Source: Campylobacteraceae bacterium
GTDB lineage: Bacteria > Campylobacterota > Campylobacteria > Campylobacterales > Campylobacteraceae
Direction of reading: 5' to 3'
DNA length: 37,092 bases
Assembly: GCA_012519705.1 (NCBI GenBank)
Contig: JAAYPR010000032.1
Span: forward strand, 1-37,092
Shown here: in pieces, positions 6,411 to 25,530 of the stretch
Numbering within the stretch: position 1 is the first letter of the stretch
How the letters are laid out: each line of letters begins with the position of its first letter
Notes under the pieces: model-generated
What the model saw: the letters and a program-made list of their open reading frames with translations, nothing else
What the model was told of the DNA's origin: nothing
Database searches by the model: none
Translations under genes and position numbers: made by a program

Positions 6411-6447
6411 GGGGTGAACGAGAATTTATGAAACAAATTAGTCTAGA

Positions 6448-6550
6448 GTCACGCTATAGCGTCACCCAGAGACGGGCGTAGTCCGGTGTGGCAATCCATA
6501 CTATCCACCGGTCATTGCGAGATTTTCGTTAGAAAATCGTGGCAATCCAT
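6448..6550. repeat. Two-unit dispersed-repeat-like element
   Basis: Two adjacent units each begin GTCA and end GTGGCAATCCAT (6488-6499 and 6539-6550, identical 12-mers). Unit B (6511-6550) is an imperfect hairpin: ATTGC pairs with GCAAT, and GATTTTC pairs with GAAAATC around a GTTA loop. Unit A (6448-6499) holds the 12-base palindrome ACGCTATAGCGT (6451-6462). CCGGTG (6483-6488) can also pair with CACCGG (6506-6511) across the unit boundary. The stretch looks richer in GC than its surroundings. It resembles the GTCATTGCGAG...GCAATCC palindromic repeats scattered in many bacterial genomes. No other copy was seen in this window, so dispersal is inference. Confidence 0.6.
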
Positions 6551-6725
6551 TTGAATAATTTTGAATTGAATTTAAGATGTTTTTTTATGAAGTTTTAAAG
6601 TTAAATTTTTTTAAGTAAAAATCTTATAAATTTCTCAAAGTTTTATTTGATGGATTACAACGCCTTTGTTTATCAGAGCGACCAATAGTTTAATTATTTA
6701 ATAAATTGAAGCAAACAAATAATTT
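6551..6725. other. AT-rich gap with no recognised gene
   Basis: This is the rest of the only gene-free stretch longer than 300 bp (6411-6787), between the polA end and a convergent lipoprotein gene. I see no open reading frame of note, no tRNA shape and no clear promoter. The sequence is mostly A/T runs. Confidence 0.6.
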
Positions 6726-6772
6726 CCACCCTAAATTTAGGGTGGAGTTATGAAGGCCTATAAATTTATAGG
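6726..6772. terminator. Twin perfect palindromes, possible bidirectional terminator
   Basis: Two perfect palindromes lie 11 bp apart: 20 bases at 6726-6745 (CCACCCTAAATTTAGGGTGG) and 16 bases at 6757-6772 (CCTATAAATTTATAGG). They lie just past the stop of the minus-strand lipoprotein gene and downstream of polA on the other strand. Neither side has a strong T run; the minus-strand exit reads GGAAATTATTTG. Termination is plausible but unproven. Confidence 0.45.
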
Positions 6773-6787
6773 TTATGGAAGTTAAAT

Positions 6788-7186
6788 TTAGATACAGCTA
6801 TTAACAGCTTCTTTTAAGTTTTGAACATATCCACGCTCATCTGTTACTAAAGCCCTTTCACAGCACGTTGTCTCAGGCACTGTTGAACAACCGTTTTCAT
6901 CACATTTATCTATCATAAGTCCTGTTGGTTTGCAGTTTTCCCAAACATAGACTTTGTTTCCAGCCGAGTTTACTCTAACTTCTTTTGGCTGTCCCCAAGT
7001 ATTTATAACAGTATCTATATGGAAACTTGTTTCCTCTGGTTTTGGTTTTGGAGCTTGTTTTTGTGGTGTCTCCATAGGTGGTTGATGAGGTTGTTTGCCT
7101 GTACCTTTGCCTACATTCCACTGTGAAGTTGTACATCCGCTCATTAAAATTGCCATAGCAAATAGAGCGATAAGTTGTCTTTTCAT
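6788..7186 (-). CDS. Cys-rich lipoprotein with BamE-like segment, function unknown
   Basis: I do not recognise this 132-residue protein. It opens with a lipoprotein signal: basic start, hydrophobic core and lipobox LMSGC with the lipidated cysteine at 18. It should be anchored to a membrane facing the periplasm. A Pro/Lys/Gln-rich linker (about 30-52) follows. Then comes a segment (about 57-82: IDTVINTWGQP, GNKVYVW) that recalls the fold signature of BamE/SmpA-type small outer-membrane proteins. The C-terminal part carries six cysteines (85, 95, 100, 108, 109, 131), suggesting disulfides or metal binding. AAGGAG precedes the ATG. It converges on polA and is divergent from the peroxidase gene. 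The BamE resemblance is my inference. Confidence 0.8.
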   Translation of the reverse strand: MKRQLIALFAMAILMSGCTTSQWNVGKGTGKQPHQPPMETPQKQAPKPKPEETSFHIDTVINTWGQPKEVRVNSAGNKVYVWENCKPTGLMIDKCDENGCSTVPETTCCERALVTDERGYVQNLKEAVNSCI

Positions 7187-7384: not shown

Positions 7385-8431
7385 ATGAGAGTTTTATCTA
7401 TTGTTGCTTGTTCAACATTAGCTCTAAGTTTAGGTTTTGCAAGCACGCTTGCAGATAGTGCAAAGTCTTTTGGTATAGAAGCACTTCCAGCTGATGAGGA
7501 AGCTTTAAATAAACTAGTTAATGAGTATTCGCCAGACTCAGAAAAATATCCAACTACAAAAGAGAGAGTTGAACTTGGTAAAATGCTATATTTTGACCCA
7601 AGACTTTCAAAAAGTGGAATTATCTCATGTAATACCTGTCACCATTTAGGCTTTGGTGGGACAGACAACGTTCCAGCATCAACAGGACACAAATGGACTC
7701 CAAACCCACGCCACTTAAACTCACCAACTGTTTATAACGCGGTATTTAACACGGCACAATTTTGGGATGGTAGAGCAGAGGACTTAGCAGCTCAAGCAGC
7801 AGGACCGATGGTTGACCCAGCTGAAATGGCATCAACTCCAGAGCACATTGAAGCAGTTATCCACTCAATTCCTGAGTATGTTGAGCTTTTCAAAGAAGCT
7901 TATGGTGCTGATGTTAAAGTTGACTATCCACTAATCGCTACAACTGTTGGCGTGTTTGAGAGAACTTTAGTTACTCCAACAAGATTTGATGACTTTTTAA
8001 ACGGCGATGAGAAAGCTTTAAGCGATGCAGAAAAAGAAGGCTTACAACTATTCTTAGATAAAGGTTGTGCAACTTGTCACAATGGTATAAACCTAGGCGG
8101 AACAATGCAAGCATTTGAGGTTGTTGAAAAGTATCAATTTGCTGATTTAGGTGGGTTTACGGGCGATGAAAACGGTCTAGTTAAAACTCCAGTTTTAAGA
8201 AACATCTTAAAAACAGCTCCATATTTCCACAACGGTGCGTTTTGGGACATAAAAGATGCGATTAAAGAGATGGGAAGTACTCAACTAGGCATTGAAATAA
8301 GCGACGCAGAAGCTGCTTCTATGGCAACTTTCTTTGAAGCACTTGAAGGTAGAATGCCAGAAATCATCTACCCAATGCTTCCAAACTCAACTCTTGACAC
8401 TCCAAAACCAGAGCTTGACTACAATAAATAA
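7385..8431 (+). CDS. Di-haem cytochrome c peroxidase
   Basis: Periplasmic enzyme that reduces hydrogen peroxide to water with electrons from cytochrome c. The 348 residues start with a cleavable signal peptide (about 1-23). Two haem-binding CxxCH sites follow: CNTCH at 82-86 (peroxidatic, low-potential) and CATCH at 228-232 (electron-accepting). FWDGRAEDL (127-135) and M296 in the MGSTQLG stretch match conserved family positions; the Met is the likely axial ligand of the electron-transfer haem. AAGGAGA lies before the ATG. It stands alone with its own promoter and terminator. Campylobacter genomes usually carry one or two such enzymes (Cj0020c and Cj0358 in C. jejuni); which orthologue this is I cannot say. 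Confidence 0.95.
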   Translation: MRVLSIVACSTLALSLGFASTLADSAKSFGIEALPADEEALNKLVNEYSPDSEKYPTTKERVELGKMLYFDPRLSKSGIISCNTCHHLGFGGTDNVPASTGHKWTPNPRHLNSPTVYNAVFNTAQFWDGRAEDLAAQAAGPMVDPAEMASTPEHIEAVIHSIPEYVELFKEAYGADVKVDYPLIATTVGVFERTLVTPTRFDDFLNGDEKALSDAEKEGLQLFLDKGCATCHNGINLGGTMQAFEVVEKYQFADLGGFTGDENGLVKTPVLRNILKTAPYFHNGAFWDIKDAIKEMGSTQLGIEISDAEAASMATFFEALEGRMPEIIYPMLPNSTLDTPKPELDYNK

Positions 8432-24915: not shown

Positions 24916-25530
24916 ATGAATAGAGTTATAGCTATAAATTACGAGCTAAGAGATGTCGATAGTGGAACTATTTTAGAGTCAAATATGGAGCATAATCCAC
25001 TATATTTTATAACAGGATTTAACCACGTTATAAAAGAGCTAGAAGAAGCTCTTTTAGATACAAAAGCAAATGATGAAAAAATCATCACTCTTCCAAAAAA
25101 TGCTCTTGGTGAGTATGATGCCGCTTTGGTTCAAGCTTATCCAAAAGAGGATTTTGCAGGCATTGAACTGTTTGAGGGGATGGAGCTAACCGGTCAAGGT
25201 GAAGATGGAAGTATCGCAAGAGCTATAGTAATGGCGATAGGTGAAGATGAAGTTATGATGGACTTTAACAACCCTTTAGCTGGTAAAAATTTAGAGTTTA
25301 GTGTAAAAGTTACAGAAAACAGACTAGCAACTGAAGAAGAGATAGCTGGACAAAGAGCAGACACACCACACTCTTGTGGATGTGGAACAGGCGGATGTGG
25401 TAGTGGACATAGTCATGGGGATGACCACGAGTGTTGTGGCGGTAGTGGAGATGGATGTTGTGGTGGCGAGCATCATCACGAAGAAGAAAGCCATGGATGT
25501 TGTGGCGGTGGACACTGCGGTAGTCACTAA
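24916..25530 (+). CDS. slyD: SlyD-type peptidyl-prolyl isomerase with metal-binding tail
   Basis: Cytoplasmic FKBP-family isomerase and chaperone; in other bacteria SlyD delivers nickel to hydrogenase and urease. The 204 residues comprise the FKBP domain split by the IF insert (about 1-145: INYELRDVDSGTILESN, YFITGFNHVIKELEEAL, YPKEDF, NNPLAGKNLEFSVKV). A C-terminal tail from residue 151 holds ten cysteines and ten histidines in 54 residues, including CCGG and HHH clusters. That tail is a strong metal-binding candidate. CAAGGAG precedes the ATG. Confidence 0.95.
   Translation: MNRVIAINYELRDVDSGTILESNMEHNPLYFITGFNHVIKELEEALLDTKANDEKIITLPKNALGEYDAALVQAYPKEDFAGIELFEGMELTGQGEDGSIARAIVMAIGEDEVMMDFNNPLAGKNLEFSVKVTENRLATEEEIAGQRADTPHSCGCGTGGCGSGHSHGDDHECCGGSGDGCCGGEHHHEEESHGCCGGGHCGSH

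Follow-up and report, generated by a model that had tools for sequence, protein, structure and literature searches.

The gene at positions 6,788 to 7,186 of the window (the whole 37,092-nt stretch of DNA analysed here) encodes a short lipoprotein with six cysteines in its final domain, and raises the question of what such a protein might do in the cell envelope. An earlier note on this DNA had described a Pro/Lys linker and a BamE-like WGQP...VYVW segment, and proposed either an envelope assembly factor or a metal or redox protein. The features on which the argument draws are as follows.

6788..7186, minus strand: lipoprotein gene, ATG at 7186 and stop at 6788, 132 aa (ORF list and translation)
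7133..7186, minus strand: signal peptide and lipobox (residues 1-18), MSGC, Cys18 in 13/13 aligned rows
7106..7132, minus strand: membrane-proximal motif (residues 19-27), TTSQWNVGK, consensus SNWNxGK
7025..7105, minus strand: low-complexity linker (residues 28-54), Pro/Lys/Gln-rich
6791..7024, minus strand: C-terminal domain (residues 55-132, 78 residues), BamE-like in two low-depth models
6863..6934, minus strand: four-cysteine segment (residues 85-108; C85, C95, C100, C108), predicted beta-hairpin
6860..6862, minus strand: core Cys109, 13/13 aligned rows
6794..6796, minus strand: core Cys131, 13/13 aligned rows
6725..6746, minus strand: terminator-like hairpin, 41 bases beyond the lipoprotein gene stop
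7385..8431, plus strand: divergent neighbour, di-haem cytochrome c peroxidase (CCP_MauG) gene

Architecture and distribution of the lipoprotein

On its translated sequence the 132-aa protein is a lipoprotein, with Cys18 following MSG in a lipobox judged by eye, and the translation bears out the Pro/Lys linker and both short elements of the earlier description (WGQP at residues 64-67, VYVW at residues 79-82). The family alignment comprises 13 rows for 14 genomes, the G008 copy being left out as equal to that of G009. Across these rows, mean majority conservation is 0.73 from the lipid-bearing cysteine to Lys27, 0.33 in the linker, which ranges from 23 to 104 residues, and 0.61 in the domain. 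A fixed-spacing DNA pattern for the motif after the lipid cysteine finds its only exact match in the genome in this gene, along with five one-mismatch matches, of which the one in C13 reads into a stop.

The gene looks monocistronic, since it has its own ribosome-binding site (AAGGAGAA) upstream of the ATG and is followed by the terminator-like hairpin (one such stem found 3' of the gene against 0.5 expected in shuffled sequence). Its start codon and that of the peroxidase gene lie 198 bases apart. A divergent promoter, as the earlier note proposed, is implied by this gene layout; the promoter-like matches near the gene number six against 4.2 +/- 1.9 expected from shuffles, which is no clear excess. 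Farther along, the intergenic stretch 6420-6560 after polA, which contains no ORF of at least 100 aa, holds a palindrome (6448-6465) and two exact copies of the 12-mer GTGGCAATCCAT, 51 bases apart, where 0.08 such pairs are expected at up to one mismatch. This 12-mer occurs in 4 of the 117 loci examined, and all four overlap the window.

A protein search with an E limit of 0.01 recovered an orthologue in all 14 genomes of the genus, including three copies with only two domain cysteines, matched at 3e-5 to 9e-5. The full-length profile matched 16 of 153 family genomes, namely the same 14, among them the rows from which the profile was built, and two (G023 and G029) that share only the signal and linker and were rejected as orthologues. 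With a profile of the domain, the same 14 family genomes were found together with two 26-column matches in longer frames (G105 and G120, E 0.06-0.07). Twelve genomes matched in a phylum sample of 397, of which 11 belong to the genus and one is spurious; the match in G250 was rejected because its frame contains a stop and encodes no protein of this kind. Neither the 139 further family genomes nor, outside the genus, the 397-genome sample yielded a convincing match, and none was found in the plasmid and phage collections. The contig collection supplied a relative from Campylobacter portucalensis, 57% identical and the same protein as in G006. Among titles on Campylobacter lipoproteins (C. ureolyticus included) and on BamE-like proteins and disulfides, none describes this protein. 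Our verdict from these searches is that the lipoprotein appears to be restricted to the genus.

Sequence comparisons and predicted fold

The likeness to BamE that the earlier note had drawn finds no support at the level of sequence. Neither the protein nor the family profile has a credible match in Pfam, NCBIfam or the PDB. The BamE family model PF04355 (cut-off 23.2 bits) was not listed for the 132-aa protein at a limit of E 10, with most matches above 0.1 filtered out, nor for any of the 13 aligned members at a limit of E 1; in the protein's own genome it matches another protein only. Aligned by hhalign, the family reached a probability of 0.7% with the BamE domains of the genus and 0.2% with E. 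coli BamE, against 75% for a positive control that paired the genus BamE domains with E. coli BamE; those domains matched E. coli OsmE too. The family comparison with E. coli OsmE gave a non-significant match of nine columns. By sequence, then, the lipoprotein falls outside the BamE family, and a BamE fold is a prediction. The strongest NCBIfam matches, each to a single family member, were rejected, namely SA0632_fam_LP (1.8e-5, spanning residues 1-21 only in the 132-aa protein), NlpD (7e-4) and the YidC N-terminus (0.0043), as was PDB 4v33, the best match to the full profile (E 0.024), which covers positions 1-66, that is, signal and linker. A clear BamE domain (E 1.4e-12) is present elsewhere in the same genome in a 269-aa lipoprotein frame (L046, G000:C29:19455-19652) with an OmpA-like tail by eye; the best PDB match of the genus BamE-domain profile is Acinetobacter TpgA (E 1.9e-19).

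Structure prediction offers modest support at the level of fold. AlphaFold2 models were obtained for the window domain (pLDDT 72, pTM 0.54) and for that of C. portucalensis (pLDDT 87, pTM 0.65), both shallow, being built on two sequences. Both begin with a helix and a G-x-P turn, followed by antiparallel-type strands. They differ in that the C. portucalensis model has one long hairpin where the window domain has four shorter strands, and in that the final 15 or so residues form a strand in one model and a helix in the other. Foldseek returned no significant match for either (best E 0.23 for the first, 0.66 for the second); BamE stands at rank 37 for the first model (E 2.2, TM 0.46) and is absent from the best 50 matches listed for the second. 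VIA re-alignment, which only re-ranks the Foldseek candidates, fills rows 1-9 of the first model with BamE chains (Z 4.5-5.2) and gives the second model 10 BamE chains, one OsmE and three others in its first 14 rows; values below Z 8 are not proof and can reflect a merely common arrangement. The three others comprise a staphylococcal cysteine-rich secretory protein in row 1 (Z 7.4, ahead of the best BamE at 6.9), an SCP-domain protein in row 3 and a beta-lactamase-inhibitor-like protein in row 8, all of which we take to share the SmpA/BLIP-type fold. Overall, the two models suggest that the domain probably has a BamE-type fold.

Domain cysteines in two layers

All six domain cysteines (85, 95, 100, 108, 109 and 131) fall within the last 48 residues, in agreement with the earlier note, which had placed them in the last 50. 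Cysteine makes up 0.93% of residues over the 37 other window ORFs surveyed, and on that background six or more in a stretch of 50 residues has a binomial probability of 7e-6 for a single stretch, uncorrected for the number of stretches. This density is reached by 2 of 38 window ORFs, the survey covering 38 of 42 after four overlapping antisense ORFs were dropped. The second is an FKBP-type isomerase ORF at 24916-25530, presumably SlyD-like, with 10 cysteines within one 50-residue stretch.

The spread of the cysteines through the family, which the earlier note had named as a check, separates them into an invariant pair, C109 and C131, and four that 3 of the 14 orthologues lack. C85, C95, C100 and C108 are all present in 10 of 13 rows, equivalent to 11 of 14 genomes, and are jointly missing in G004, G010 and G011; these three lack a 20-column stretch and have Tyr in place of Cys85. 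Among the 14 genomes the four thus travel all-or-none with an insert of about 20 residues, and four of the six domain cysteines are dispensable. Homologues without the cysteines, which the earlier note would have counted against its reading, exist in part. Such block-wise presence or absence is expected of paired cysteines on one structural element and makes a catalytic or metal site on which every family member depends less likely; nor does the 132-aa sequence contain a CXXC motif. A core disulfide together with a hairpin held by further disulfides accounts for the pattern better than metal binding or catalysis does, and the metal or redox protein of the earlier note gains no support.

The models are consistent with this arrangement. 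Both place C95 and C100 at symmetrical positions on either side of a two-residue turn, and in the second model the strand register brings C85 near C108/C109, which would leave C109-C131 as the core pair, the one kept in the short forms. From these positions we infer a putative pairing of C95-C100, C85-C108 and C109-C131.

A UvrA tree of the 14 genus genomes and six outsiders places two-cysteine genomes beside six-cysteine genomes (the forks concerned have support of 90/90 and 92/91), which makes loss of the four cysteines the likelier direction and weakly suggests that the short form is derived. Hairpin loss requires two changes on this tree and one in 6% of bootstrap trees; a tree that unites the two-cysteine genomes in a single clade is not rejected (AU p 0.18), so that one loss fits the data as well as two, and clustering of the two labels is unclear, with 62 of 500 shuffles scoring as low. 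The genus itself is not one clade on the tree, G012 (L096) joining other genera of the family at a fork that is unresolved. The presence of DsbA or DsbB as an explanation of which species keep the extra cysteines was ruled out by their distribution: DsbB-family matches occur in all 14 genus genomes, and DsbA was found in nine, with no match in six-cysteine G005, G007 and G009 or two-cysteine G010 and G011, and one in two-cysteine G004. For the disulfide-bearing adaptor proposed below, the DsbB matches count in favour and the gaps in DsbA against.

Proposed role and relation to known systems

With moderate confidence, we propose that this is an envelope lipoprotein carrying a BamE/OsmE-fold domain on a flexible linker, in which a disulfide-pinned hairpin equips a non-enzymatic docking or adaptor module. 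Cys18 would be lipidated, most likely at the outer membrane with the protein facing the periplasm, and the conserved SNWNxGK motif would sit at the membrane surface. The flexible linker, at 23-104 residues, would then present a small alpha/beta domain whose core is closed by a C109-C131 disulfide. Most species would add a hairpin that extends from between two strands; two further disulfides would hold it, in the simplest scheme C95-C100 at the tip and C85-C108 at the base, and it may provide the contact surface. The protein is probably non-enzymatic, and a docking adaptor is its most likely role.

The fold itself may be questioned. If the resemblance to BamE reflects a common alpha/beta arrangement, the domain would be an unrelated small fold, as the Z scores below 8, the non-significant Foldseek results and the absent profile match would allow; we regard this as somewhat unlikely, because both re-alignments, despite different query sequences and ends, have this fold group at or close to the top. 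Should the fold be right, a special case of the envelope-adaptor explanation is that the protein serves as a lineage-specific BAM accessory subunit that stands in for BamE, with its SNWN motif and BamE-fold head as docking elements, and that the hairpin was later shed in some species. The BamE-type fold in two models and the presence of the lipoprotein in all 14 genus genomes favour this, as does its conserved membrane-proximal motif, a feature described for BamC and BamF by Anwari et al. 2012 (PMC3359395). The same paper reports no evidence for BamE as a BAM component in epsilon-proteobacteria, with one OsmE-like match in 37 genomes, and notes that other lineages evolved BAM lipoproteins of their own, e.g. 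BamF; a further paper likewise confines BamB, BamC and BamE to subsets of Proteobacteria (PMC4494059). An older review, however, calls BamE ubiquitous in Proteobacteria (PMC2635482). Sequence homology to BamE and the YRPDINQGN stretch are both absent, other genera of the family have no convincing match to the lipoprotein, and another BamE-domain protein is found in 13 of the 14 genus genomes, so the BamE slot may already be taken. We thus consider a BAM subunit distinctly unlikely.

Two further explanations give the cysteines a more active part. A disulfide-rich domain on a proline-rich linker could report the folding or redox state of the envelope, as an RcsF-like stress sensor, and RcsF has the same architecture (PMC7917084). 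Yet the structural matches are BamE-like, and the RcsF model NF008048 touches 2 of the 13 members weakly (best E 0.025) and is not listed for the 132-aa protein, making a sensor improbable. Alternatively, the lipoprotein could partner the adjacent cytochrome c peroxidase in redox or metal chemistry. The two genes are divergent neighbours here, as the earlier note observed, and a peroxidase adjoins the lipoprotein gene in 9 of 14 genomes (G000, G003, G005-G009, G012 and G013), although the neighbour in G003 is a paralogue (43-45%). Adjacency is lacking in G001, G002, G004, G010 and G011: G001 and G002 have six-cysteine forms without this neighbour, the lipoprotein gene of G004, G010 and G011 lies beside that for ribosomal protein L21, and the only relative in G004 stands at 31%. 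The UvrA tree requires four or more switches of adjacency; together with the block-wise variation of the four cysteines and the lack of CXXC, this makes a partnership, downgraded after the neighbourhood count, scarcely probable, and the link is positional at best. In G013 the alignment of the peroxidase gene itself (L003 2064-3108) breaks into two pieces that overlap but are read in different frames, as a frameshift would produce.

The envelope adaptor with a BamE-type domain remains our preferred reading. If the fold is right, a BamE-type lipoprotein invisible to the sequence searches used here would exist in a lineage described in PMC3359395 as lacking BamE in its BAM complex, and the BamE-type fold would recur as an envelope adaptor. 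The genus also offers a natural experiment, in which the same domain carries six cysteines in most species and two in others.

Among known proteins, BamE (SmpA/OmlA, PF04355) is likewise a lipoprotein, and it shares with the two models the helix, G-x-P turn and antiparallel strands (best Z 5.2 and 6.9). It differs in that no sequence or profile match connects the two and that the linker of this family is longer. E. coli BamE has no cysteine after the lipid cysteine, compared with six in the domain here, and the YRPDINQGN stretch of E. coli BamE, a type of sequence that is important in BamE where it follows the lipid cysteine, is replaced in this family by SNWNxGK. OsmE, also a lipoprotein and one of the proteins matched by the second model (4dm5, Z 5.3), lacks the four-cysteine segment; the E. 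coli protein has two domain cysteines, the last of them in DDTGHVINSGYQTC, which by eye resembles DERGYVQNLKEAVNSC here. TpgA-like lipoproteins differ in having a clear BamE-family sequence, where this family has no profile match, and in the OmpA-like tail seen by eye in several frames. They resemble it in carrying, in aligned rows, two cysteines placed around the final strand of their BamE domain, and the N-terminal domain of TpgA is among the structural matches of the second model (9vnj_B, Z 4.1). RcsF has no credible sequence match with this lipoprotein, but its lipid anchor, proline-rich linker and small cysteine-bearing domain, as described in PMC7917084, parallel in architecture the lipid anchor, proline-rich linker and disulfide-rich head proposed here.
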